Source: Cellulomonas sp. PhB150 (GTDB lineage: Bacteria; Actinomycetota; Actinomycetes; Actinomycetales; Cellulomonadaceae). Taken from it: a stretch of 64,000 nt of DNA. A program made the position numbers and the translations under genes. Of this stretch, positions 18,928 through 35,178 are shown in pieces. The notes beneath the pieces were generated by a model, which was not told where the DNA came from, searched no databases, and worked only from the letters and a program-made list of their open reading frames with translations. Every line of letters begins with the position of its first letter. Within the stretch, counting starts at the first letter, position 1. Where the stretch lies: contig NZ_RKHX01000003.1 of the NCBI RefSeq assembly GCF_003755175.1, positions 62,001 through 126,000 on the forward strand. The letters are read 5' to 3'.

Positions 18928-20637
18928 TCACGGGTACGTGGGCGGCGTGAGCGGCCACCACACGATCTCCACGTCGTTCATCACCAGCGCGACGAGCACG
19001 ACCGACACGACGAGGCACAGCACGACGAGGATCGCCGCGCCCAGCCGTCCGGGCGCGACGACGGCGAGCACCCGCCGGGCACCGGTCCGGGTCATCCCCG
19101 ACAACGGCCCGAACCACACGATGAGCACCCCGAGCAGCGCGACCGAGCCGACCAGGATCGAGGCGGCCGTGCCCTGCAGCTCGTCGCCCGTGGTCAGGTC
19201 GCCGAGCACCCAGGTGCCCTCGGAGAACAGCCACCAGATCACGCCGACGACGATGACGACGACGCTCGCGCTCACCATGAGCGCCGGGATCAGCCCCGCC
19301 GCTGCGCGCAGGAGGTGCCACGGCCCGGTGGCCACGGCCCGGGCCGTGTCCCCGCGCCGCACGCCCGACCGCTCACGCCGCGTGTGCATGGACTCCACGG
19401 TCGAGCCGATCGCCCGCTCCACGAGCAGGAGCACCCCGACGACGATGAGCGTGACCAGCGGGAACAGCGCCGCGGCGGTGCCGACGACGAGCGCGAGCGC
19501 GAGCAGCGAGCCCCAGCGCCGCCGCGCCGGTGGGCGCTCGTAGCCGGACCCCTCACCCGCGTCACCCTCGGACGCGTCGAGGTCGTCCTCGATCCAGTCC
19601 ACCCCGTCGGGGTCGTCGTCCAGGTCGTCCTCGTCCTCGTCCGGCGCGACCTTCACGAGGCTCGCCGGCATCGCGACGGTGTTCCCGTCCTGGGCGGCGG
19701 GCGCGAGCGCACGCGTGGACGCCGGCTCGGCGGGCGCGATCACGGTCGTCGCCCCGGCCATCGGCACGGCCGAGGCCATCCCGGCGTCGAGCACCACGGT
19801 CCCGTCCTCGTCGGGCGGCAGGTCCCCCTCCGCAGCGACGGTGGTCAGCGCGAGCACGACGTCGTCGGGCGAGGTGCGCGCGTCGACGTCCGGGTCCAGC
19901 GCGCCGACGAGGGCCGCGGCGGTCAGCGCGCCGAGGCCGTCGACGTCCACCTCGCCGGACCGTGCGCGGGCGAGGACCGCCTCGACGGGTCGGGTCCCGA
20001 ACGGCGCCCGCCCGGTCGCGGCGAACACCAGCACGGCGGCCCAGCCCCACAGGTCGCTCGCGGGCGACGGCTCGTCGCCGTCGAGCAGCTCGGGCGCGAG
20101 GTAGCCGGGGGTGCCCACGACGAGGCCCGTCGAGGTCAGCGGCACGCCGTCGTCGGCCGCCTGCGCGATGCCGAAGTCGATGAGCACCGGGCCGTCGTCG
20201 GTGACGAGGACGTTCGACGGCTTGAGGTCGCGGTGCACCACGCCGGCGCCGTGCACGGCGTGCAGCGCGTCGAGCAGCCCCGCGGCGAGCGCGAGCAGGT
20301 CGTCGGCGTCCAGCGGCCCCCGCTCGCGCACGTGGTCGGCGAGGTTCTCGCCGTCGACCAGCTCGGTGACGATGAACGCCTCGGTCGAGTCCGCCTCCGC
20401 GTCGAGCACGGCGGCGACTGCAGGGTGGCGCAGGCGCTGCAGCGCGGCGACCTCACGACGCAGGCGCTCGCGACCGGCGGCGTCGGCACCGATGTGCGGG
20501 TGCAGCAGCTTGAGCGCGACGGTGCTGCCGCCCCCGTCGACCGCGCGGTACACGGTCCCCATGCCGCCCGAGCCCAGCGGCGCCACGACGGTGTACCCGC
20601 CGATCTCCGACCCCGGTGCCAGCCCGATCCGCTCCAT
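18928..20637 (-). CDS. Ser/Thr protein kinase with polytopic C-terminal membrane domain
   Basis: A 569-residue Hanks-type kinase. P-loop [12 protein letters not shown] at 21-32, ATP Lys43, HRDLKPSN at 135-142, DFG at 154-156 and [10 protein letters not shown] activation segment all present, so catalytically complete. After an acidic linker (with [12 protein letters not shown]) come about five to six membrane spans from residue 370 on. Most actinobacterial Pkn proteins have one span and PASTA or sensor domains outside; here the tail is almost entirely membrane. First gene of the likely kinase-membrane protein-DsbA operon. Targets unknown. Confidence 0.93.
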
Positions 20638-20740: not shown

Positions 20741-22189
20741 GTGCCGAGCGCTGTGCCCGATCGCGGCTACGACCTGGTCGTCGTCGCCAACCGTCTGCCC
20801 GTGGACGTGACCATCGGCGAGGACGGTGAGCCGACCTGGACCCGCTCTCCCGGTGGCCTGGTGACCGCCCTCAACCCCGTCATGGCGAAGGCCGAGGGCG
20901 CGTGGGTGGGCTGGTCCGGCGCGCCGGACCACGACGTCGAGCCGTTCGAGGTCGACGGGACCGAGCTGATCCCCGTGACCCTGTCCGCGGAGGACATCGA
21001 GAAGTTCTACGAGGGCTTCTCCAACGACACCCTGTGGCCGCTCTACCACGACGTCATCTCCCCGCCCACGTTCCACCGCACCTGGTGGGAGGCCTACCAG
21101 CGGGTCAACCGCCGGTTCGCGGAGGCCGCCGCCGGCCAGGCCGCGCACGGCGCGACGGTCTGGGTGCACGACTACCAGCTGCAGCTGGTCCCCAAGATGC
21201 TGCGCGACCTGCGGCCGGACCTGAGGATCGGGTACTTCCACCACATCCCGTGGCCGCCGCTCGAGCTGTTCATCCAGCTCCCGTGGCGCAAGCAGGTCGT
21301 CGAGGGCCTGCTCGGCGCGGACCTCATCGGCTTCCAGCGCGGTGGCGACGCCGCCAACTTCGTCCGCGTCGTCCGCCGCCTCACCGGCCTGACCACGCGC
21401 GGGCAGGTCATCACGCTGTCCAAGCACGGCAAGGTCGAGCGGCACGTGCGTGCGGCCGCCTTCCCGATCTCGATCGACTCGGGCGCGTTCGACGAGCTGG
21501 CGCGCACCCCCGAGGTGCAGGCCCGCGCCAAGCAGATCCGCACCGAGCTCGGCGACCCCGAGGTGCTCCTGCTCGGCGTCGACCGGCTCGACTACACCAA
21601 GGGGATCCGCCACCGGATCAAGGCGTACGGCGAGCTCCTGCACGACGGCCGGCTCTCGGCGACGTCGACGACCCTGGTCCAGGTGGCCAGCCCGAGCCGC
21701 GAGAACGTGGACGCCTACGCCCAGCTGCGCGACGAGGTCGAGCAGCTGGTCGGCCGGATCAACGGCGACTACGGCCAGGTGGGCCACGCGCCCGTGCAGT
21801 ACCTGCACCAGTCGTTCCCCATGGAGGAGATGGCGGCCCTGTACCTGGCGGCCGACGTCATGCTCGTCACCGCCCTGCGTGACGGCATGAACCTCGTGGC
21901 CAAGGAGTACGTCGCCGCCCGGTCCGACGACCGAGGCGCGCTGGTGCTGTCCGAGTTCACAGGTGCGGCCGACGAGCTGACCGGCGCGATCCTCGTCAAC
22001 CCGCACGACATCGACGGCATGAAGGACGCGATCACCTACGCCGTGCACATCGACCCCCGTGAGTCCCGCAAGCGCATGCGCCGTCTGCGCCGCCGCGTGC
22101 TCGGCCACGACGTGAACGCCTGGTCGCAGGAGTTCCTCGCGGTGCTGACGGCGGTCCCGAACCGGGAAGGACGAGGTGGACATGTCTGA
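20741..22189 (+). CDS. otsA: Trehalose-6-phosphate synthase
   Basis: A 482-residue GT20 enzyme joining UDP- or GDP-glucose to glucose-6-phosphate. Visible signatures: ANRLPVDV near the start, [40 protein letters not shown] and the nucleotide-sugar loop [17 protein letters not shown] 20741 gives [20 protein letters not shown]. It overlaps otsB by 8 nt, so the two are coupled. Cytoplasmic; makes trehalose for stress protection. Confidence 0.97.
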
Positions 22190-22928
22190 CCTCACCACCG
22201 CCATCGCGGCCACCGACCGGCCGCTGCTCGTCGCGCTCGACTTCGACGGCACGCTCGCCCCGCTCCAGGACGACCCGAGCGCCTCGCGGATCATCCCCGC
22301 GGGCGTGGACGTCCTGGCCCGGGTCGCCGCGCAGCCGGAGGTGTCGCTCGCGCTCGTCTCGGGCCGCGCGCTGCACGACCTGCACGCTCTCGCCGAGGTC
22401 CCCGCCGGGACGTACCTGATCGGCAGCCACGGCGCCGAGCGTGCGCGGGTCACCCGGTTCGGGCTCGACCGCGACGTGGTGCAGCTGACCGACGACGAGG
22501 CCGACCGGCTCGCCGCTCTCGGTGCCCGCGCCGCCGGCATCGTGCGCGGCAAGGACGGCGTGTGGGTGGAGACCAAGCCGACCGCCGTCGTGGTGCACAC
22601 GCGGCTCGCGCAGGACGAGGACCGGCACGAGGCGGAGGCCGCGGCGCTCGCGCTGGGCGCCGAGCTCGGCTCCGGCGTGCTGCACGGCAAGGACGTGGTC
22701 GAGATCTCCGTGCTGCACGCGAGCAAGGGCGAGGCCCTGGCCGCGCTGCGCGACGAGCTCGGCGCGCACGCCGTCGTGTTCGCGGGTGACGACACCACCG
22801 ACGAGCGCGCGTTCGAGGTGCTGCGCGGGGGCGACGTGGCGATCAAGGTGGGCCCGGGCGAGACGATCGCGCGCCACCGCGTGGACTCGCCCGACGAGCT
22901 CGTCGAGGCCCTCTCCGCTCTCGCCTGA
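22182..22928 (+). CDS. otsB: Trehalose-6-phosphate phosphatase
   Basis: A 248-residue HAD-family phosphatase. Motif I is [11 protein letters not shown] (nucleophile and acid Asp), motif II lies in VSGRALHDL, and the magnesium-binding motif is [13 protein letters not shown]. The ATG at 22182 overlaps the otsA stop; a GTG six bases upstream is an alternative. It removes phosphate from trehalose-6-phosphate, completing the OtsAB route. Confidence 0.96.
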
Positions 22929-23048: not shown

Positions 23049-25250
23049 GTGCCTGTCACCACCCCTCGCCCGATGCGGCGTCTTCTCGCGATCACCGCGA
23101 CCCTCGCCACGCTCGCCGCGGGCGCGGCGGTGGCCCCGGCGGCGGGAGCCGTCGCGCCCTGCGCCGACGGCACCTGCACGTACACCGACGGCTACCGCAA
23201 CGGGCCGGGCACGTGGACGGTCCCCGCGGACGTCACGTCCGTGCACGCGGTCCTGGCCGGCGGCTCGGGCGCGGGCACCGACGGGTCCGGCGGCCGCGGC
23301 GGCGTCGTCGCGGCCGACCTGGCCGTGACCCCGGGCGAGACCCTCACCCTCCGCGTCGGCGCCAAGGGCGACGGCGGCGGCTACGGCGGGGGCAGCGACG
23401 GCACGACCAGCGGTGGCGGGGGCGGCACGTTCCTCGCCGACGCCGACGGCCTGCTCCTCGTGGCCGGCGGAGGCGGCGGTGCGGGTGACGGCGGCCAGGG
23501 CGGCAACGGTGGCGGCGGGCAGTCGCTCGCGGGCGCTCCCGGCACCGGACCGGCCGCGGGCGGCGGCGCGACGACGACGGCGGTGGGGACGGCCGGCGAC
23601 GGCGCGACGGCCGCGACCGGCCCGGCGACCACGACCGCCTTCGGCGTCGGAGGCATCGGTGCGACCGGCGCCGGCAACGGCGGCGGCGGGTACCTCGGCG
23701 GCGGCGGAGGCGGCCTCGTCGCGACGGTCACCGGCGGAGCAGGCGGCGGCTCGGGGTACGCAGCGGCCGGGATCACGCCCGAGGCGACCACGGCGCTCCA
23801 CTCCGGCGACGGCTCGATCACGATCACGTGGGACGAGCCCTCGGCGACCACGACGGCGACCATCGCGCTCGGCTCCGACCACGCCGTCGCAGGCAAGGCG
23901 ACGACGGCGAAGGTCACGATCACGGCCCACGGTGAGACCGACCTCGCCGGCGGCACGGTCCAGCTCCTCGTCGACGGCAAGAAGTCGGGCGCTCCCGTCC
24001 CGGCCACGGTCGACGGCACCACGGCCACGGCGACCCTCACGGTCCCGGCCACGAGCGTCGGCGTGCACCAGGTCTCCGCGTCCTTCGGCGCGGACGACGC
24101 GGACCTCGCCTCGACCGCGGGCACGGCCGCCTTCACCGTGCTGCCCGCGACCCTGCCGTGGACGATCGTCGACGCGAAGGGCCGTCCGGCCACCTCGCCG
24201 CTCGCCTCGCCCGAGGTGTTCGCCCGCGCGACCGGCCAGCTGCCGGGCGCGACGGTGCACGCCGAGGTCAAGGTCGACGGCGAGTGGGTCGTCGGGTTCG
24301 ACGAGGAGGGTGAGGTCGGAGCCGACGGCACCGTCGAGATCGCCCTCGTCACGCCCCTGCTCTTCGCGCTCGTCGACGAGGACATCGCGGCCGACCACGC
24401 CGTCGAGGTCCGGCTCGTCGCCGAGTCCCCGTTCGGCTCGTCCGGCGACCTGGCCAGCACGTCGAAGACCGTGACCGTCCCGGGCGTCAAGATGCCCATC
24501 GACCTGCAGGTCGACCCCGGCCCCTACCGCGCGGGCGACGGCGTCGACAACGCGGTCAAGGTCACGATCACCTGGTTCGACGAGGACCTCGTGGCCGCGA
24601 GCGTGGACGACATCGTCGACATGCTCGACCAGGGCCAGCTCACGCTGCGCGTCGACGGCGACGTCGTCGACCCGCGGGACATCGACGCCGACGCGGCCGA
24701 CGACGAGACGGCCGTGCTGACGTTCGCCGCACCGACGACGCCCGGCGACCACACGGTCCAGGCGATCATCGAGGCGACCGAGCCGACGTTCTACAGCGCC
24801 TCGAAGGTCCGCCACTTCACCGTCGCGCCGAGCACCTTCGACGCCGCGCTGCTCGACGACGCGGGCAATCCCGTCACCACGATCCACCCGGGCGACACGC
24901 TCCACGCCGCCGCAGCGGGCCTGCTCCCGGGGACGAAGGTGGGCTTCGAGCTGCACTCGACGCCCACCGACCTCGGCTCGGCCACGGCCGACGAGGACGG
25001 CATCGCGGTCGCCGCGGTGACGATCCCGAAGGACGCCACCGCCGGCTCGCACATGCTCGTCGTCACGGCGACGGACGCGCTCGGCGACGTCCACGTGCAG
25101 AAGGTCGCCCTGACGGTCGTCGTCGCGGCGGACCCGGGCGACGCGCTCGCGGTGACCGGCTCGAACGTGGCGCCGATGCTCGGTCTCGGTGCGCTCCTGC
25201 TGCTGGTCGGCGCTGGGCTGCTCGTCGTGGCTCGCCGCCGTCGGGCCTGA
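23049..25250 (+). CDS. Sortase-anchored glycine-rich surface protein with Ig-like repeats (LAVTG)
   Basis: A 733-residue surface protein: signal peptide (MRRLLAITATLATLAAGAAVAP), a Gly-rich domain at about 50-250 (runs of GGGGG, GAGDGGQGGNGGGG) resembling receptor-type Gly-rich modules, then Ser/Thr/Ala beta-rich modules of Big_3/Ig-like type (for example GGTVQLLVDGKKSG, VGVHQVSASFGADDADL, PGDHTVQAIIEAT). The C-terminus is a cell-wall sorting signal: LAVTG at 700-704, hydrophobic span, and Arg tail (RRRRA). The LAxTG spelling is that of class E sortases. GTG 23049 follows GGAG. No sortase gene is in the window. Likely adhesin or cell-surface matrix. Confidence 0.85.
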   Translation: MPVTTPRPMRRLLAITATLATLAAGAAVAPAAGAVAPCADGTCTYTDGYRNGPGTWTVPADVTSVHAVLAGGSGAGTDGSGGRGGVVAADLAVTPGETLTLRVGAKGDGGGYGGGSDGTTSGGGGGTFLADADGLLLVAGGGGGAGDGGQGGNGGGGQSLAGAPGTGPAAGGGATTTAVGTAGDGATAATGPATTTAFGVGGIGATGAGNGGGGYLGGGGGGLVATVTGGAGGGSGYAAAGITPEATTALHSGDGSITITWDEPSATTTATIALGSDHAVAGKATTAKVTITAHGETDLAGGTVQLLVDGKKSGAPVPATVDGTTATATLTVPATSVGVHQVSASFGADDADLASTAGTAAFTVLPATLPWTIVDAKGRPATSPLASPEVFARATGQLPGATVHAEVKVDGEWVVGFDEEGEVGADGTVEIALVTPLLFALVDEDIAADHAVEVRLVAESPFGSSGDLASTSKTVTVPGVKMPIDLQVDPGPYRAGDGVDNAVKVTITWFDEDLVAASVDDIVDMLDQGQLTLRVDGDVVDPRDIDADAADDETAVLTFAAPTTPGDHTVQAIIEATEPTFYSASKVRHFTVAPSTFDAALLDDAGNPVTTIHPGDTLHAAAAGLLPGTKVGFELHSTPTDLGSATADEDGIAVAAVTIPKDATAGSHMLVVTATDALGDVHVQKVALTVVVAADPGDALAVTGSNVAPMLGLGALLLLVGAGLLVVARRRRA

Positions 25251-25333: not shown

Positions 25334-26737
25334 ATGTCGACGATGCGGTCGGTGGAGCTCGTCGAGGCGGACGCGCCGCTCGTCGACGAGCCTGCGCCCC
25401 GCCCGTCCTGGCTCCGCCGGCACGCCGGCTGGGGGGCGGCGGCCGCGGCCGTCGTCGTCGCCGTCGTCGTCACCGTCCAGACGTCGTCGGCCGCGCACGA
25501 CCGGGCCCGGGTGGCAGCCCTCGCGACCGTCCCGGGCGTCCTGGCTCCGCTCGACGGGACCCTCGAGGTCGCCTGGCAGCTCGACTTCGCGCACTCGAGC
25601 GCGATCTGGAGCGGCCCGGCCGACGGCGTGCTCGTCTCGGGGGCGTCCCAGCAGGGCGGGTTCGTCCTGCGCGGCACCGACGTGACGACCGGCGGCCAGG
25701 TCTGGACCACCCCGGTCACCCCCGACCCCGGCCCGAACGCGTGGGCGTGGTGCCTGCCCGTCGGCACGGGAGCGAGCGCCGTCGCGGTGTGCACGGCCGG
25801 CAACAACTCGGGCCTCTGGGAGGTCACCGCGCCGGACCGCGTGCTGTGGGTCGTCCAGCCGCGCACCGGTGGCGTGCTGACCCAGCGAACGCTGCCGATG
25901 ACCGCCCAGATCGCTGCGCTCGACGGCCACCTGCTCGTCGCCGAGCCGGCCGACGACGACCACTGGCAGGTCCAGGCCGTCGACCCCGTGTCGGGCGAAC
26001 CGGCCTGGACGTACACGTCGGAGCGGGTCCCGGGCGGCGCGCACGTCCTGGACTCGCCCCAGCTGACCCCCGTGCAGGACGGCGTCCTGCTCGTCGTGCC
26101 GGGCCACATGTGGTCGATCGACGGGGACGGACAGCTGGTCGCCTCGGTCGCGGACGGGGACGAGGCGTGGTGGACGGGCCTGCGTGCGGGCGCCGCGATG
26201 GGGTTCACCGAGCAGGGCGACGAGGGCTACCGCAGCACCGTGGTGCTCGCCGACGGCACCCGGTTCGCGAGCACCGAGGGCGAGCTCGCCGTGTTCCCCG
26301 ACGACGGCTCGGACCCGGACCTGTTCTTCACGACCGACCGCGCGGACGGCGGGAGCCTGGTCGCCAGATCCGCGGTCGACGGCTCGGTCGTGTGGCGCTC
26401 GCGAGTCGCGCCGACCTCCGCCGTGCTGGTCGCCGGCACCCTGTACGCCGGGACGGCCGACGCGCTCGTCGCCCTCGACGCGGGCAGCGGCGACCAGCGG
26501 TGGCGCCGCTCCGTCGACCACCCCGTCGCCCAGCTCTCGACCGACGGGCGCTACCTCGCCGCGACCGACGGGTCCTCCGAGGTGGACGCGTACGCGATGC
26601 ACGACGGCACGCGCGCCTGGTCCGTGGACCTGCGCGACGTGCTGCACACCGAGACGCTCGGATCCGTGGGCTTCTTCGGCGCGACGCGGTTCCTGCTGGC
26701 CTCCCTGCCCGACGGAGCGGTGGTGGCCCTGCGATGA
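25334..26737 (+). CDS. Propeller array member 1: membrane-anchored PQQ-like beta-propeller protein
   Basis: 467 residues: cytoplasmic tag RSVELVEAD at 5-13, one span at about 32-52, then an extracytoplasmic domain of PQQ-like blades (VDPVSGEPAWTY, LDAGSGDQRWRR, MHDGTRAWSVDL). Only two cysteines, C140 and C153, probably disulfide-bonded. Further shared motifs: PGHMWSIDG and FPDDGSDPDLFF (acidic DDGS loop, possibly metal-binding). No catalytic residues recognised; PQQ-like here means blade fold, not necessarily cofactor. Overlaps member 2 by 4 nt. Closest to member 2. Confidence 0.85.
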   Translation: MSTMRSVELVEADAPLVDEPAPRPSWLRRHAGWGAAAAAVVVAVVVTVQTSSAAHDRARVAALATVPGVLAPLDGTLEVAWQLDFAHSSAIWSGPADGVLVSGASQQGGFVLRGTDVTTGGQVWTTPVTPDPGPNAWAWCLPVGTGASAVAVCTAGNNSGLWEVTAPDRVLWVVQPRTGGVLTQRTLPMTAQIAALDGHLLVAEPADDDHWQVQAVDPVSGEPAWTYTSERVPGGAHVLDSPQLTPVQDGVLLVVPGHMWSIDGDGQLVASVADGDEAWWTGLRAGAAMGFTEQGDEGYRSTVVLADGTRFASTEGELAVFPDDGSDPDLFFTTDRADGGSLVARSAVDGSVVWRSRVAPTSAVLVAGTLYAGTADALVALDAGSGDQRWRRSVDHPVAQLSTDGRYLAATDGSSEVDAYAMHDGTRAWSVDLRDVLHTETLGSVGFFGATRFLLASLPDGAVVALR

Positions 26738-28140
26738 GCCGGTCCGCGATGCACGACGTGGAGCTGCTCGAGGGAGACGTGCCACCCGACGAGGACGCCG
26801 GCCCGTCGCGACCGCGCCGCGCACGGACGTGGTGGGCGGTGGGGGTCGCCGCGGCGCTCGTCGTGGGCGGAGCCGTGGCCGTCCAGCACCGCAGCGACGC
26901 CGCAGCCGACGAGCGCGCCGCGAAGCTCGAGCTGGTGCCCGGCGTCCTCGCCCCCGCCGACGGCTCCCTGCGCGCGCTGTGGCGGCTCGAGCAGACCGAG
27001 GCCGCCGTGACCTACGGCGGTGCCGCGGACGGCGTCCTGCTCGGCGGGACGTCGTCGGGCGACGGCTTCGACCTGCACGGCGTCGACGCGGTGAGCGGCG
27101 AGGTGCTGTGGCGCACGCCGGTGGACGTGCCTGTCGACGAGACCCTGTGGTCCTGGTGCAACCCGGTGCGGGACGACGGCGGCCGCGACCTGGCCGTGTG
27201 CACAGCAGGGCCGGACGCGCCGGCGGCCTCGATCGCGCTGTCGTCGCGGACGGTCTGGACCGTCGAGCCGCGCACGGGCGAGATCCTCACGAGCCGCCGC
27301 GTGCGCGGCGACTCGACGGTGCTGGTCACCGCCGACCAGCTCGTCGTCGCCGAGAGCCCGGACACGGGCGTGTGGCGGGTCCAGTCGCTCGACCCGTCGT
27401 CGGGCGAGCCGCGCTGGACCTTCACGCCGCCCATCCCCCGCACCCACGCCGACTTCTCCCAGCCGCAGCTGCTCGACGAGGGCACGGGCAACGTGCTCGT
27501 CTCGCTCGGCGGCCACCTCTGGCTGCTCGACAGCACGGGCAGGGCGCTGGTCGACCGCACGACGACGGACGGCACCTGGTGGGTCACGCTCCGGGCCGGG
27601 ACGTCGCTGGGCCGCTCGTTCTCCAGCGGTGGGGCCGACGGGGTCGCCCTCCTGCCCGACCACGCGACCGTCCCGATCAGCGAGCAGCCGGTCTACGTCT
27701 TCCCCGACGACGGCACCGCACCCGACGCCCTGTTCACGCTCGACACCCGCGCCGACGGCACGTGGCTCGTCGGCCGCTCGGCGGCTACCGGCACGCAGCG
27801 GTGGACGCTCCGCGAGAACGCGCTCACGTCGCTGCTCGTCGAGGGCACGCTCTACATCGGCACGTCCGACAGCATCATCGCGCTCGACCCCGCGAGCGGT
27901 GACGTGCGCTGGCGGCGAGACGTCGGCCACGCCGTGGACCAGATGAGCACCGACGGCGACGACCTCGTGGTCGTCGCGCCCCCGACGACCGTCGTCGCCT
28001 ACTCCCGGCACGACGGCCACCCGGCGTGGAGCTCGGACCTGGCCGACGAGCTCAGCGGGCTCGCGTCGGTCGGCTTCGCGCCCGGCACGCGGCACGTCGT
28101 CGCGTGGGGGCTGGACGGTTCCGTCACCGCGGTGGGCTGA
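26734..28140 (+). CDS. Propeller array member 2: membrane-anchored PQQ-like beta-propeller protein
   Basis: 468 residues with the same plan as member 1: tag HDVELLEGD at 7-15, span at about 33-50, propeller with VDAVSGEVLWRTP, LDPSSGEPRWTF and LDPASGDVRWRR. Exactly two cysteines, C142 and C156; GGHLWLLDS and FPDDGTAPDALF. The ATG overlaps the preceding stop as ATGA, the tightest coupling in the array. With member 1 it forms subgroup A, sharing AVCTAG and PRTGxxLT. Confidence 0.85.
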   Translation: MSRSAMHDVELLEGDVPPDEDAGPSRPRRARTWWAVGVAAALVVGGAVAVQHRSDAAADERAAKLELVPGVLAPADGSLRALWRLEQTEAAVTYGGAADGVLLGGTSSGDGFDLHGVDAVSGEVLWRTPVDVPVDETLWSWCNPVRDDGGRDLAVCTAGPDAPAASIALSSRTVWTVEPRTGEILTSRRVRGDSTVLVTADQLVVAESPDTGVWRVQSLDPSSGEPRWTFTPPIPRTHADFSQPQLLDEGTGNVLVSLGGHLWLLDSTGRALVDRTTTDGTWWVTLRAGTSLGRSFSSGGADGVALLPDHATVPISEQPVYVFPDDGTAPDALFTLDTRADGTWLVGRSAATGTQRWTLRENALTSLLVEGTLYIGTSDSIIALDPASGDVRWRRDVGHAVDQMSTDGDDLVVVAPPTTVVAYSRHDGHPAWSSDLADELSGLASVGFAPGTRHVVAWGLDGSVTAVG

Positions 28141-28160
28141 GTCCCCTACGCTTCGGCGGC

Positions 28161-29582
28161 ATGGGGGCACTGCGGGACGTGGAGCTGGTCGAGGAGGACG
28201 TCGCCGGCGAGGGGACGCCGCCGGTGCGGCGACGGCGCTGGTGGTGGCTGGTCGCTGCGGCGGTCGCCGTGGCGGGGCTGCTCGTCGGCGGGCAGGCGTG
28301 GGCCGATGCGCGGCACGCCGCGCACCTCGCGCGGTTCGACGACGTCGCCGGCGTGGTGCCGCCCATCCCCGAGCACCCGGCCAAGCTCTGGACCTACCAG
28401 CCCTACGGCTCGGAGATGGACGGTGCGACCGAGGTCGGTTCCCGCCTCGTCGCGGGCACGGTCTCCGCGGCGACCAGGGAGTACCGGATCCGGCAGATCG
28501 ACCGGGCGACCGGGGCGACGGTCTGGAGCGCACGAGGCACGGTCGACCCATCGGTCGACCTGGGCACCGAGGCCTACGCCGTGTGCCGACCGCTCGACGA
28601 GGGCCACTCGTCGCTCGTCGCCTGCGCGCTGGGCCAGGACAGCGGCGGCGTGGAGGGCATCGACGCGGAGCAGGGGCAGATCGTCACGCTGGACGCCGCG
28701 GACGGGTCGAACCGCGGGTCCGTCGTCGGCCGGTGGGCCCAGTGGGACGCCGCCGGCGGCCGCCTCGTCACCGCCCGGCCGGTGACCACGGGCACCACGG
28801 TGACGTGGACGCTCCGAGCGACCGACCCGCGTGGGCACGAGACCTGGGCGCGCACGCTCCCCCCGGTGGACGTCCAGCCCGAGCCCGAGGCCGACGACGA
28901 CGGCGTCATCGCGCAGTCGCAGTACTTCTCGACCGACATGGAGGCCGCGGGCTCGCGGACGGTGCTCGCGGACCAGGGCCACCTGTTCGTGCTCGACGAC
29001 GCAGTCGTGACGGCCTCCCTCGACGTCGGTCGGGGGCTCTGGCCACGACTGGAGCGTGGCGCGGTGGTGCTCCACGACTACGAGGACCTCTCCACCTCCA
29101 CCCTCGTGACCGGCACGGGCCGTGCGGTCTCCATCCCCGGTACGACCCTCTACCTGCCGGTCGACGACGGGAGCGACTCGGACGTCCTGCTCGTCCAGGA
29201 GCTCGGACGGGTCTCGGCGCGCGACGCCACGACGGGCGCGGTGCTGTGGTCGACGCTGACGAACGGGTCGTCGGCGGTGGTCCTGGGAGGCCGGGCCTAC
29301 CTGGGGATGGACACGATGCTCGGTGCGTTCGACCTCCGCACGGGCGACGTCCTCTGGCGCGAGCCGTCCTCCTCTGCTCCGTCGCTCGTGACCGATGGCC
29401 GTGGGGTCTGGGCGAGCGGCGAGACGTCGTTGCAGGGCTTCGCGCTCGACGACGGCAGCGCCCTGCCGGCACGCGACGTCACCGACCTGGTCCCGCACGA
29501 GGACGGCGGCTACTCGCCGCTGGACGCACGCCTCGGCATGCTCGCTGCCTCCGACGACCGCACGGTCCAGGTCGTCGGCTGA
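28161..29582 (+). CDS. Propeller array member 3: membrane-anchored PQQ-like beta-propeller protein
   Basis: 473 residues: tag RDVELVEED at 5-13, Trp-rich interface RRRRWWW, span at about 27-47, ARFDDVAGVV, then blades (IDRATGATVWSA, RDATTGAVLWST, DLRTGDVLWRE). Exactly two cysteines, C142 and C155; DQGHLFVLDD and VDDGSDSDVLL. It begins 20 bp after member 2. Most similar to member 5 (subgroup B: GGQ..DARH and RFDDV shared). Confidence 0.85.
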   Translation: MGALRDVELVEEDVAGEGTPPVRRRRWWWLVAAAVAVAGLLVGGQAWADARHAAHLARFDDVAGVVPPIPEHPAKLWTYQPYGSEMDGATEVGSRLVAGTVSAATREYRIRQIDRATGATVWSARGTVDPSVDLGTEAYAVCRPLDEGHSSLVACALGQDSGGVEGIDAEQGQIVTLDAADGSNRGSVVGRWAQWDAAGGRLVTARPVTTGTTVTWTLRATDPRGHETWARTLPPVDVQPEPEADDDGVIAQSQYFSTDMEAAGSRTVLADQGHLFVLDDAVVTASLDVGRGLWPRLERGAVVLHDYEDLSTSTLVTGTGRAVSIPGTTLYLPVDDGSDSDVLLVQELGRVSARDATTGAVLWSTLTNGSSAVVLGGRAYLGMDTMLGAFDLRTGDVLWREPSSSAPSLVTDGRGVWASGETSLQGFALDDGSALPARDVTDLVPHEDGGYSPLDARLGMLAASDDRTVQVVG

Positions 29583-29605
29583 GCGGCAGGTCTACGATCC
29601 CGCGC

Positions 29606-31024
29606 ATGGGGGACATGCGGACGGTCGAGCTGGACGACGGCACGCCGGGGGCCGACCCGCCCCGGCGCCACCGGCGGCGGTGGCCGTGGGTCGCCGGCGC
29701 CGTGGTCGCCGTCGCCGCCGTGCTCGTGACGTGGCAGCTCGTGGTGAACCATCGCGAGCAGTCCGCGCAGGACCGCGTGGCGCAGGCGTCCGACGTGCTC
29801 CTGCCCGTGCCCGAGCAGCTCCACGTCCTCTGGACGGCGCCGACCCGGGCGAACGCCTACGTCGGCGGCTCCGCCGTCGGCCCGCACCTGCTCGCGGGCA
29901 GCACGGCCGACGACGGCTCGACCTACGAGATCCACGAGGTCGACCGGCACACGGGCGAACCCGGGTGGAGCGTGACCGGGACGAGGCCCGCGGGCTCCAC
30001 CACCGGCGTCGAGTGCCGCGGCGTCTCCGTCACCGGTGGCCCTCCGACGTTCGCTGCGTGCGCGATCGGCGCGGAACAAGCCACCGGCCTGCTCCCGACC
30101 GAGTCCACGGACGTGCGGATCGTCGTGCTCGTCGCGGCGACGGGTGAGGTCGTCTCGACCACCGACACCACCCTGGCCGCGTGGGCCGTCGCGGGCGACA
30201 AGATCGTCACGGCCACCTCCGAGCGGGACGGCGACGACGTCACGTGGTCGCTGCGGACGATCGACGCCACGAGCGGCGCACCGACGTGGTCGCTCGTGCT
30301 GCCCACGGTGCCGGTCGAGCCCCCGGACACCGACGCGAACGGGTTCCTCACCGGCGGGTTCTTCTTCTCGTCGCTCGAAGGGACGCTCGGCCGGGTCGTC
30401 CTGATGGACCAGGGTCACGTCTGGGTGGTCGACGAGGGGGCGCTGACGACGACCGTCCGCGTGAAGGCCAGCTGGACCGCGACGCTCGACCGGTCCGGCG
30501 TGGCGCAGCTCGCGCTCGGCGAGGCGACGTCGGCGACCGCCTCGCAGCTCGTCCTCACCGACGGCAGCATCGTCGACGTGGCCGCCCAGCAGGTCGACCT
30601 CCCCGTCGACGACGGCACCGCCTCGAACCTCGTGCTCGTCCGCGCCTGGAAGGGCCCGACGCTCCAGGCCCGGGACCCGCGCACCGGCGTGGTCCGGTGG
30701 GAGGTGCCGCAGGCCGGCGCACAGGCGCTCGTGCTGGCCGGGCGGGTCGTCGTGCGCAGCGGCGACGACCTCGTCGCCGTCGACGCGGGCGACGGCCACG
30801 TCGTGTGGCGCACCCGCTCGGTCATGGACCCGGCCGTCGCGCTCAGCACCGACGGGGCCAACGTCTACGTCCCGGTGCCCGGGCGGCTGCGCGCGTACGC
30901 GGTGTCCGACGGGCACCGCCTCCCGGACCGGGTCCTGCCCGACGAGTACGGCGGCGACTCGCCCAGCGCGTCCTACGGCGTGCTCAGCGTGTACGTCGGC
31001 GACCCCGCTCCGATCCTGGGCTGA
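29606..31024 (+). CDS. Propeller array member 4: membrane-anchored PQQ-like beta-propeller protein
   Basis: 472 residues: tag RTVELDDGT at 5-13 (the divergent tag of the five), span at about 27-47, then blades (VDRHTGEPGWSV, RDPRTGVVRWEV, VDAGDGHVVWRT). Exactly two cysteines, C137 and C152; DQGHVWVVDE and VDDGTASNLVL. It begins 23 bp after member 3. Belongs with members 3 and 5 but is the most diverged of that subgroup. Confidence 0.84.
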   Translation: MGDMRTVELDDGTPGADPPRRHRRRWPWVAGAVVAVAAVLVTWQLVVNHREQSAQDRVAQASDVLLPVPEQLHVLWTAPTRANAYVGGSAVGPHLLAGSTADDGSTYEIHEVDRHTGEPGWSVTGTRPAGSTTGVECRGVSVTGGPPTFAACAIGAEQATGLLPTESTDVRIVVLVAATGEVVSTTDTTLAAWAVAGDKIVTATSERDGDDVTWSLRTIDATSGAPTWSLVLPTVPVEPPDTDANGFLTGGFFFSSLEGTLGRVVLMDQGHVWVVDEGALTTTVRVKASWTATLDRSGVAQLALGEATSATASQLVLTDGSIVDVAAQQVDLPVDDGTASNLVLVRAWKGPTLQARDPRTGVVRWEVPQAGAQALVLAGRVVVRSGDDLVAVDAGDGHVVWRTRSVMDPAVALSTDGANVYVPVPGRLRAYAVSDGHRLPDRVLPDEYGGDSPSASYGVLSVYVGDPAPILG

Positions 31025-31041
31025 GGCTAGGGTCGGGCGCC

Positions 31042-32478
31042 ATGGCGGGGCTGCAGCAGGTCGAGCTGGTCGAGGACGGGCCGCTCGACGTCGCGCCCGC
31101 CGGGCCACGCCCCTCGCGCCGGCGCTGGGCATGGGCGACGGGCGGTCTCGTGGCCGTCGTCGGTCTTCTGGTCGGGGGCCAGGTCGCGCTCGACGCCCGG
31201 CACGTCCGGCACGAGACCCGGTTCGACGACGTCCCGGGCGTGCTGCTCCCCCTGCCTCAGCGCCCCTCGGCGCTGTGGACCACGAAGGCCGACGGGACCG
31301 AGCTGGACGGTGCGACGCAGGTCGGCCGGCACCTGGTGGCCGTGACGACGTCCGACGAGGTCTTCACGGTCCGGGAGATCGACCGGGCGTCGGGGGCGGC
31401 CGTGTGGACGACGGCCGTTCCGGTGGACGACGACGCGCGCACCGACGGGGGCACGCAGTCCTTCTGCGTCCCCGCGGGAGCGGACGACCTGGCGGTGTGC
31501 GCCGTCGGCCCCATCGGACCGAACTGGATCCCGGCCGAGAACATGAGCACCCAGCTCGTCGTGGTCGACGCCGGCACGGGCGAGCTGGTCGCGACCTGGG
31601 TGACGCCGCTGCGCACGTGGACGGCCGGCGACGGGGAGGTCCAGACCGCGTCGTCGCGCACCGCGGGCGACGTCGTCACCTGGACGCTGACGACGTTCGA
31701 CACCGCGGGTCAGCGCAGGGCCCGGCAGGAGCTGGGCAGCGTCGCGGCGCCACCCGGAACCGACGACGCCCCGGGCTACGACATCGGCGTCCAGGCGGTC
31801 GACGGCTACACCGCGTTCACCGACCAGGGTGCGGTCTGGCGCCTGCGCGACGGCGCCGTCATCGACGAGCTCGAGATCCCGTCCGAGACGTCGATCGAGC
31901 TCGGGCCGCGCGGCCTGATCCGCAGCACCCCCTGGAACCTGGGCCCCGACACCGCCGACACGACGCTGTTCTTCGCCGACGGGACGACCCGCGCCGTCGA
32001 GGGTGGGCCGGTCTACGCGATGGTCGACGACGGCTCGGCGGACGACGTCGTCCTCACGATGGAGCGCCCCGGCTCGCTCGTCGCGCGCGACGCCTCGTCG
32101 GGCCGGCCCCTGTGGTCGCAGCCCGGCACGCCGCTGGGTGGCGACCTGGTCCTCGACGGCGTCGTGTACCTCACCGCCTCGGACGGCTTCGGCGTCACGC
32201 CCGCGTCCACCACCTCGGTCGTCGCGCTCGACGCGCGCACCGGCGAGATCCGCTGGGCCCGGCCGACGAACGTCGGCGGCTGGCCCATGACCGACGGGCG
32301 CGCGGTCTACGTCGACGCCACCACCAGCCTGCGCGCTTTCGCCCTCGACGACGGCACCACCCTCCCCGACCGCGACCTGACCGGTCTGACCCAGGACGCG
32401 TCGATCAGCACCGGTCTCGGGATGCTCTCGGTGTACTCGGGGACCGACGACGACCGGAGCGCCGCCGTCATCGGTTGA
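31042..32478 (+). CDS. Propeller array member 5: membrane-anchored PQQ-like beta-propeller protein
   Basis: 478 residues: tag QQVELVEDG at 5-13, span at about 30-49, RFDDVPGVL, blades (IDRASGAAVWTT, RDASSGRPLWSQ, LDARTGEIRWAR). Exactly two cysteines, C142 and C153; DQGAVWRLRD and VDDGSADDVVLT. It starts 17 bp after member 4 and ends the array; the following 185 bp carry the msiK promoter. Confidence 0.85.
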   Translation: MAGLQQVELVEDGPLDVAPAGPRPSRRRWAWATGGLVAVVGLLVGGQVALDARHVRHETRFDDVPGVLLPLPQRPSALWTTKADGTELDGATQVGRHLVAVTTSDEVFTVREIDRASGAAVWTTAVPVDDDARTDGGTQSFCVPAGADDLAVCAVGPIGPNWIPAENMSTQLVVVDAGTGELVATWVTPLRTWTAGDGEVQTASSRTAGDVVTWTLTTFDTAGQRRARQELGSVAAPPGTDDAPGYDIGVQAVDGYTAFTDQGAVWRLRDGAVIDELEIPSETSIELGPRGLIRSTPWNLGPDTADTTLFFADGTTRAVEGGPVYAMVDDGSADDVVLTMERPGSLVARDASSGRPLWSQPGTPLGGDLVLDGVVYLTASDGFGVTPASTTSVVALDARTGEIRWARPTNVGGWPMTDGRAVYVDATTSLRAFALDDGTTLPDRDLTGLTQDASISTGLGMLSVYSGTDDDRSAAVIG

Positions 32479-32663
32479 ATCGAAGCGGCCTGACCAGCAT
32501 CGATACCCCACCGTGACCACGACCGCGTGCGGGGTGTGGCATCATGGCACCAGACCGAGGGGGGCCTTCGTGGCCCGCCTCGATCTGTGTCAGTGAAGAC
32601 ACTCGACACCTTTCACAACGGATCGTCCGGCACGTACCTGCCGGTGAAGGGACTGGTTCCACC

Positions 32664-33785
<1,122 letters not shown>

Positions 33786-33891: not shown

Positions 33892-35178
33892 ATGAGCCCC
33901 ACACCCCAGCGATTGCAGATCACGGCAGCGCGGCCGGATCCTGCACTGCTGGACCTGCCCTGGCACATCCCGCTCGAGGACTGGCCGGCCGAGACGCTCG
34001 CCGCCCTCCCCCGCGGCATCAGCCGGCACATCGTGCGGTTCGCGCGCCTGTCGGGACGGGTCGTCGCGATCAAGGAGATCGGCGAGACCGTCGCGCACCG
34101 CGAGTACGAGCTGCTGCGCCAGCTCGAACGCATCGACGTGCCGTCCGTCGAGCCCGTCGGGGTCATCACCGGCCGACGCAGCCCCGAGGGCGAGCCGCTC
34201 GAGGCTGTGCTCATCACCAAGCACCTGCAGTTCTCGCTGCCGTACCGCGCGCTGTTCAGCCAGTCGCTGCGCCCGGACACCGCCACGCGCCTCATCGACG
34301 CACTCGCCGTGCTTCTCGTGCGCCTGCACCTGGCGGGCTTCTACTGGGGCGACGTGTCGCTGTCGAACACGTTGTTCCGCCGTGACGCCGAGACGTTCGA
34401 GGCCTACCTCGTGGACGCCGAGACGGGTGACCTGCACGACGAGCTGTCCGAGGGCCAGCGCGCGTACGACCTCGAGGTCGCGCGCGTGAACATCATCGGC
34501 GAGCTCATGGACCTGCAGGCCGGCGAGTTCCTCGAGGCCGACGTCGACGCCGTCGCGATCGGCAACGCGCTCGCCGAGCGGTACACCGACCTGTGGCGCG
34601 CCCTCACCGAGGTCGAGTCGTTCGGGTACGGCGACCGCTGGCGGGTGCAGGCCCGCATCGACCGCCTCAACGACCTCGGCTTCGACGTGGGTGAGCTCGA
34701 CATCACCACGGACGTCGACGGCACCACGGTGCGCATCCAGCCCAAGGTCGTCGACGCCGGGCACCACTCGCGCCGGCTCATGCGTCTGACCGGCCTCGAC
34801 GTGGGCGAGAACCAGGCCCGCCGCCTGCTCAACGACCTCGACGAGTACCGGGCCGCGACCGACCGGCAGGCCGAGGACGAGTCCTTCGTCGCGCACGACT
34901 GGCTCACCGGCGTCTTCGAGCCCGCCGTCCGCCGCGTCCCGCGCGAGCTGCGCGGCAAGCTCGAGCCCGCGCAGATCTTCCACGAGCTGCTCGACCACCG
35001 CTGGTACCTCTCGGAGCAGCAGAACCGCGACGTCCCGATGAAGGAGGCCGCGAAGAGCTACGTGAAGAACATCCTGCCCAACCGGCCCGACGAGCAGTCG
35101 ATCCTGGGTGTCCAGGCCGGCGACCTGCGCGAGGGCTCTCAGCAGCCGCCCGTCGACGAGGACGAGATCATCGGCTGA
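33892..35178 (+). CDS. DUF4032 protein with kinase-like (lipopolysaccharide kinase-type) fold
   Basis: A 428-residue cytoplasmic protein. The N-terminal half is kinase-like: VVAIKEIGE (candidate Lys), HREYELLRQLE, FYWGDVSLSNTLFRR (catalytic-loop analogue with Asp and Asn) and AYLVDAETGD (metal Asp analogue). DUF4032 follows to the end. Activity is unproven for the family. The last codons and stop form a hairpin with the convergent membrane-protein gene. It is adjacent to msiK on the same strand, but a terminator separates them. Confidence 0.85.
   Translation: MSPTPQRLQITAARPDPALLDLPWHIPLEDWPAETLAALPRGISRHIVRFARLSGRVVAIKEIGETVAHREYELLRQLERIDVPSVEPVGVITGRRSPEGEPLEAVLITKHLQFSLPYRALFSQSLRPDTATRLIDALAVLLVRLHLAGFYWGDVSLSNTLFRRDAETFEAYLVDAETGDLHDELSEGQRAYDLEVARVNIIGELMDLQAGEFLEADVDAVAIGNALAERYTDLWRALTEVESFGYGDRWRVQARIDRLNDLGFDVGELDITTDVDGTTVRIQPKVVDAGHHSRRLMRLTGLDVGENQARRLLNDLDEYRAATDRQAEDESFVAHDWLTGVFEPAVRRVPRELRGKLEPAQIFHELLDHRWYLSEQQNRDVPMKEAAKSYVKNILPNRPDEQSILGVQAGDLREGSQQPPVDEDEIIG

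Follow-up and report, generated by a model that had tools for sequence, protein, structure and literature searches.

Five adjacent genes in a 64,000-nucleotide stretch of the Cellulomonas sp. PhB150 genome (contig NZ_RKHX01000003.1, positions 62,001 to 126,000 of the forward strand; hereafter the window, numbered from its first letter) belong to an apparently undescribed family of tagged membrane proteins. The products of these genes, g1 to g5, share a short VEL tag near the N terminus, one membrane span and a pyrroloquinoline quinone (PQQ)-like propeller containing two cysteines. We found that the family is centred on Cellulomonas, that the Cellulomonas copies we examined nearly all retain tag and cysteine pair, whether lone or arrayed, and that the five-gene array is an in-place tandem amplification at one chromosomal site, where 0 to 6 copies are present in different genomes. 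Tandem amplification is ordinary; the unusual part is a tail tag kept through deep divergence. Full-text searches of a literature library returned no article about this family, in agreement with an earlier note on this DNA that knew of no described system of such arrangement.

The five-gene array and its family

All five genes are co-directional on the plus strand: g1 (25334..26737, 467 amino acids, alternative start 25343), g2 (26734..28140, 468 amino acids, alternative start 26749), g3 (28161..29582, 473 amino acids), g4 (29606..31024, 472 amino acids, alternative start 29615) and g5 (31042..32478, 478 amino acids). These coordinates confirm the tandem paralogues described in the earlier note, and the gaps between successive genes (-4, 20, 23 and 17) make the single operon that it proposed plausible as judged by spacing; a simple promoter and terminator scan returned zero sites of any kind and is uninformative about the operon either way. 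Pairwise identity is 43% between g1 and g2 and 33-38% among g3, g4 and g5, and drops to 25-28% across these sets, so the two subgroups are real.

Every protein has a match to PF13360 (PQQ_2) above the Pfam gathering cut-off (28.2-60.5 bits against 27.6) and one strong span preceded by an Arg-rich stretch, from which we infer that the N terminus lies inside the cell. The tag reads VELVE in g1 (25352..25366), VELLE in g2 (26758..26772), VELVE in g3 (28179..28193), VELDD in g4 (29624..29638) and VELVE in g5 (31060..31074), all on the plus strand. Because g1, g2 and g4 have an additional in-frame ATG three codons 5′ of the tag valine, the tag may form the extreme N terminus of the protein; the codon matching this second ATG is CTG in g3 and g5, and the g1-g2 gap would become +11 if g2 starts there. 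Exactly two cysteines are present in each protein, none of them near the N terminus: Cys140 and Cys153 in g1 (25751..25792), Cys142 and Cys156 in g2 (27157..27201), Cys142 and Cys155 in g3 (28584..28625), Cys137 and Cys152 in g4 (30014..30061) and Cys142 and Cys153 in g5 (31465..31500), again all on the plus strand.

A profile built from g1-g5 recovered four more family genes elsewhere in the PhB150 genome: an unlinked tandem trio (contig C2) and a singleton (C1), all with at least two cysteines. Three of these start with the tag (MQTVELDD, MQEVEILD and SQVELLED) and the fourth has the looser form MQEVVVDD. Two other rows of this search were discounted, one as a fragment of the third C2 gene and one as a match to an unrelated gene at its span only; locus L241, matched by the profile at the span, is by eye a PP2C-type phosphatase.

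With a profile of all nine sequences (A2), the family was detected in 22 of 24 other Cellulomonas genomes and in 0 of 14 genomes of the same order but a different family. Within the GTDB family, with PhB150 and Cellulomonas counted, it is present in 28 of 61 genomes, spread over 11 of 25 genera. Up to 13 paralogues occur per genome, and A2 copy numbers are lower bounds, since they derive from the best 41 candidates or fewer per genome in the genus and order sample and the best 26 or fewer in the GTDB family sample. Among 34 named loci retrieved with a closer alignment, 31 carry the label Cellulomonas, with one each from Cellulosimicrobium cellulans, Actinotalea and an Actinomycetales metagenome-assembled genome. 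A search across the order, whose absences are soft because the best 10 candidates per genome were scored, matched 5 of 149 genomes: four belong to the same GTDB family, and the fifth, outside it, gave a weak partial match. No plasmid carriage was seen when g1 was compared by tblastn with a plasmid collection.

Conservation was assessed on 131 aligned homologues (134 from the 23 genomes with matches, own included, minus 3 fragments; the match of each begins close to the N-terminal end of the profile), across which the architecture given in the earlier note is kept: tag, single span, Arg-rich stretch consistent with a cytoplasmic N terminus, and cysteine pair. The tag columns hold V in 126, E in 103, L in 109 and an acidic residue two positions after L in 124 homologues. 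A count that is independent of the tag alignment covered the 60 residues preceding the span and found literal VEL there in 87 of 131 homologues, compared with a mean of 2.1 and a maximum of 9 in 300 shuffles. Four homologues without a chosen tag candidate were excluded from per-position tag counts and from linker and codon statistics; among the remaining 127 the linker from tag to span is variable in sequence and ranges from 13 to 88 residues (median 26). Linker length thus varies while the tag stays, a pattern as for a tethered short motif.

Both cysteine columns are invariant (131/131 each), with a separation of 8-30 residues by column, and the number of cysteines after the span is two in 104 proteins, three in 16 and four in 7 (127 proteins). 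Both sequence motifs that the earlier note had listed need correcting. The second Asp of a DDG loop is present in 131/131 and is followed, after the DDG column, by S or T in 129/131; the final Asp of the proposed DDG(S/T)xxD loop is not general, the commonest 8-mer at this region being VDDGSVPG (22 of 193 called members). A proposed GH-h-W/F motif is not family-wide, with H in 22/131 and W in 43/131. Outside Cellulomonas but within the GTDB family, 50 full-length members were compared: all 50 have at least two cysteines, 38 carry a tag-like motif under a looser pattern that was given no shuffle control, 25 have literal VEL and 32 have DDG(S/T).

A scan of the PhB150 genome with a strict DNA pattern for the tag gave 54 matches, against 20 in a reversed control. 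We inspected 30 loci and 19 of the other 24 places, the remaining five being the window genes. The pattern recovers 7 of 9 known family members and is therefore not exhaustive. The inspected matches that lie no more than 12 codons from a start predicted by a simple gene caller fall in family loci L212 and L218 and in one other gene, whose product has no span and by eye resembles hisA; no other, non-family membrane protein with the strict tag was found among the inspected matches. This outcome agrees with a family-specific tag and names no partner.

Chromosomal sites and copy number

We examined 116 gene groups, of which 77 are singletons and 39 contain 2-6 family genes (one intervening gene allowed), so that 116 of 193 called members share their group with at least one other. 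The regions that hold these groups were chosen for having matches, with 40 regions fetched as part of the matches in other genera, and groups at contig ends, such as that of genome G013, may be cut short. Because most groups are single and one site carries 0 to 6 copies, the array does not form a unit but represents one site among those of a larger family, expanded to a variable copy number. The earlier note held that the array would be an ordinary family expansion if homologues commonly lacked tag and cysteine pair, or occurred as unlinked single genes with a known function; loss of tag or cysteines is not common in the genus, and homologues are often single genes.

The site occupied in the window, site A, has the order otsA-otsB-[family genes]-ugpC-DUF4032. 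Family genes occupy it in 22 genomes: one copy in 8 genomes, two in 6, three in 4, five in 3 and six in 1. Exceptions to this order are G008 and G020, in which further genes separate otsB from the family genes, G023, which has one opposite gene within the array, and G013, cut by the contig end. An empty site was looked for in seven genomes (G003, G004, G006, G007, G011, G016 and G019) and found in all: otsA, otsB and ugpC are consecutive, and the aligned ends of otsB and ugpC are 174-276 bp apart in six genomes and 497 bp apart in G004. No match to g1 or g3 was obtained by tblastn in these seven loci of ∼3.7 kb.

In the window the upstream flank consists of an otsA-type gene (Glyco_transf_20; 20741..22189) and a gene which we take to be otsB (22176..22928), and the downstream flank of genes for a UgpC-type ATP-binding cassette ATPase (32544..33785) and a DUF4032 / Kdo-kinase-like protein (33892..35178), all on the plus strand. 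Between otsB and the array lies a plus-strand gene (23073..25250) for a large surface protein with a LAVTG sorting-type C terminus and weak immunoglobulin-like similarity; a sortase-type surface gene occupies this place only in the window, G002 and G023 among the 22 site-A genomes. A Ser/Thr protein kinase gene (Pkinase; 18928-20637, minus strand) is divergent from otsA.

At a second site, site B, 1-3 family copies lie ahead of LeuA/RecO in 21 genomes. An RDD-FHA gene is directly upstream in 14 of 21 loci, 11 from Cellulomonas and 3 from one other genus (G054, G076 and G092), and TgpA and DUF58 genes precede RDD-FHA at those loci (for example, L062:5494-13999). In four genomes of other genera (G043, G045, G049 and G070) the upstream genes are instead YbeY-CorC, or YbeY alone, then Era and an alpha/beta hydrolase. 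Docking of the tag to FHA as a general rule was rejected: the hydrolase gene replaces RDD-FHA in those four loci and sites A and C have no adjoining FHA gene, so docking of this kind would be restricted to site B. In other genera a DUF7937 / LRV_2-type gene follows the family gene at site B (L121, L123, L126 and L128; Pfam assignment on the L126 copy). Site C, in 7 genomes, lies near GH18-CBM2 chitinase and alpha-1,3-glucanase genes in the same direction. In 3 of these 7 genomes (L088, L104 and L111) a gene for a sigma factor of the extracytoplasmic function (ECF) type (DUF6596) lies 34 bp upstream of 3-4 family genes, and the chitinase and alpha-1,3-glucanase genes flank the whole.

In a FastTree tree of 188 members (5 of 193 excluded), site labels mostly follow clades. 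The subgroups g1-g2 and g3-g5, first distinguished in the earlier note, fall into separate clades, and G002 and G023 have counterparts in both; the split between them therefore predates the parting of those species.

Modelled propeller architecture

AlphaFold2 models of g2 and g5 (47 rows each) have a mean predicted local distance difference test score of 90.1 and 87.5 and a predicted template modelling score of 0.86 and 0.84, respectively. Both consist of a low-confidence tail, one unbroken helix and a propeller. The helix, predicted to comprise transmembrane span plus stalk, covers 38 residues in g2 (model residues 24-61; 26818..26931, plus strand) and 33 in g5 (24-56).

Our own reading of the strands suggests that the propeller has nine blades in both models. 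Compared with the sequence, this reading gives eight internal C-turn-D units and one blade closed by an N-terminal D strand. Strands of at least three residues number 34 in g2 and 35 in g5, plus a few of two residues; nine four-stranded blades need 36 strands and eight need 32. A hidden Markov model of the blade unit placed units near residue 114 in 123 of 131 proteins, 174 in 67, 216 in 109, 264 in 19, 345 in 125, 383 in 128 and 420 in 111, and the unit located near 303 by the strand reading was matched in 0 of 131. Different AlphaFold versions can give eight or nine blades for one protein, according to PMC9218822.

The two g2 cysteines, at model residues 137 and 151, belong to neighbouring strands (134-141 and 147-154), and the residue numbers match the hairpin register (137+151 = 141+147 = 288); those of g5 are within one residue of register (139+150 versus 141+147). 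Since the cysteines are opposite one another by this register, a disulfide that staples one propeller hairpin is likely. Mean column entropy is lowest in C-D turns (2.04), followed by A-B loops (2.40), D-A loops (2.94) and B-C loops (3.10), and the B-C and D-A loops are also the most variable in length. In such propellers the B-C and D-A loops share one face, and their higher entropy is as expected if this face diversifies.

BamB (YfgL) is the leading natural match in the PDB, although designed Cake propellers score higher in the profile search. It resembles the family in its extracytoplasmic PQQ-like fold and its D-x-x-T-G repeat turns, but is anchored as a lipoprotein, whereas g1-g5 have no lipobox cysteine of the BamB type (their only cysteines are at 137-156) and combine a transmembrane span, a cytoplasmic tag and a conserved cysteine pair in an actinobacterial host. 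The BamB model TIGR03300 (cut-off 285.2) gave 26.5-36.9 bits in g2, g3 and g5 and no match at E up to 0.1 in g1 and g4. The 50 fold matches listed, to BamB and other propellers, have template modelling scores of 0.30-0.46 by query and at most 0.57 by target, with a root-mean-square deviation of 7-13 Å; the scores by query would fit a different blade number and are no proof of one. The actinobacterial Rv3212 family (NF050114, cut-off 150) is weakly similar to the propeller of g1 only (14.1 bits). We know of no tag or span of this kind in YxaL of Bacillus velezensis (PDB 7dxn and 7eq5), a Gram-positive PQQ-like propeller that is both a profile and a fold match.

The title of PMC6483160 describes YxaL as secreted. 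Nine-bladed propellers that have been solved or predicted, as given in PMC13384848 and PMC9218822, include eIF3b, Trypanosoma cruzi Tc323 and cyanobacterial chitinases; eIF2A is reported to be nine-bladed as well. All differ from the present family: eIF3b and eIF2A are translation factors of eukaryotes, Tc323 combines six propeller domains with a reported PQQ-dependent activity, and the cyanobacterial chitinases have their propellers as repetitive N-terminal domains. Models of the PADLOC collection matched 0 of 5 window proteins at E up to 0.1, and an anti-phage role was set aside.

Possible roles of the tagged propellers

The reading that we favour, at about even odds, is that these proteins are tandem-amplified bitopic receptors or scaffolds, non-enzymatic, with varied propeller ligands and one shared, tag-docked partner. 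At a fixed chromosomal site, tandem amplification has multiplied a Cellulomonas-centred bitopic envelope protein. Each copy has a short acidic tail, probably cytoplasmic, beginning with the V-E-L-x-E/D tag, a flexible Pro/Arg-rich linker, a helix forming span and stalk, and a PQQ-like beta-propeller, predicted to be extracytoplasmic, with one likely disulfide across a hairpin. The variable propeller loops would recognise different ligands, of the envelope or the environment; the shared tag would dock a single cytoplasmic partner. The existence of the family, its modelled architecture, its conservation and synteny and the copy-number variation are well supported, and N-in topology, disulfide, nine blades, ligand binding and tag docking are inferred.

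Several observations weigh against this reading. The tag entropy of 1.17 is biased low, because the tag alignment was anchored by motif choice. Among 127 homologues the tag valine is encoded by GTC in 101 versus GTG in 22, and the leucine by CTC in 70, CTG in 31 and CTT in 2, a C-ending skew relative to the rest of the genes that may leave room for some nucleotide-level constraint. In the other genera, 12 of 50 members have no tag-like motif and 18 of 50 have no DDG(S/T). Nine blades rest on the models, because the blade-unit profile misses one internal unit everywhere and another mostly. Finally, the genes next to the sites are as different as those for trehalose synthesis, leucine synthesis and a chitinase, and none is common to sites A, B and C; the neighbourhoods therefore indicate no partner or ligand.

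The strongest competitor, to which we assign a lower though substantial probability, is an ordinary expansion of redundant BamB-like envelope scaffolds or folding helpers, in which the tag would be a partnerless topogenic or translation-start element. It is compatible with the many single genes (77/116), the differing neighbours, the 0 to 6 copies at one site, the lead of BamB among natural PDB matches and the codon skew in the tag. However, a topogenic element needs no V-E-L in fixed register across window paralogues that are 25-43% identical, and the excess of literal VEL over shuffled sequences (87/131 versus 2.1), together with a linker that is free to vary after the tag, also weighs against this reading.

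We think it unlikely that the proteins are polysaccharide sensors tied to carbohydrate use that relay to a sigma factor or kinase. The chitinase and alpha-1,3-glucanase genes at site C, the ECF-type sigma gene in three of its seven genomes, and the position of site A between otsA/otsB and the UgpC-type ATPase gene are what such sensors would lead one to expect, but site B neighbours are mostly housekeeping genes. Moreover, no RsgI_N or other anti-sigma domain was detected in g1-g5 (Pfam, E up to 1), and the recurrent sigma gene adjoins 3 of 116 groups, in an annotation that covered recurrent clusters, such that others could exist; an anti-sigma role was rejected on these two grounds. That the proteins are quinoprotein (PQQ-dependent) or other enzymes is very improbable: despite profile similarity to PQQ dehydrogenases, the scores against PQQ dehydrogenase and acido-empty models are 16.5-24.9 bits versus cut-offs of 480-833 (for TIGR03075, cut-off 480, and TIGR03074, cut-off 833, 16.7-19.8 bits in g2 and g3 only), the family cysteines are 8-30 residues apart rather than adjacent as in quinoprotein dehydrogenases, and near-invariant propeller positions other than the cysteine pair and DDG loop are mostly repeat-turn Gly, Asp and Trp.

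Returning to receptors or scaffolds with a common partner, a more specific and doubtful proposal is that they are modular, with diversified nine-bladed propellers sharing the VEL-x-E/D tag and one partner, so that the repertoire would shift by tandem duplication while the relay stays unchanged. If the strand reading holds, this would also be a bacterial family of natural nine-bladed PQQ-type propellers. A tail motif kept at ∼25% identity, ahead of linkers of such different length, points to one conserved cytoplasmic contact. The fixed site, with its range of copy numbers, offers a ready-made series in which the role of the copies could be studied. Identifying the contact of the tag would explain the many paralogues that a single genome may hold, and could reveal a new route of envelope sensing or scaffolding in actinobacteria known as cellulose degraders.

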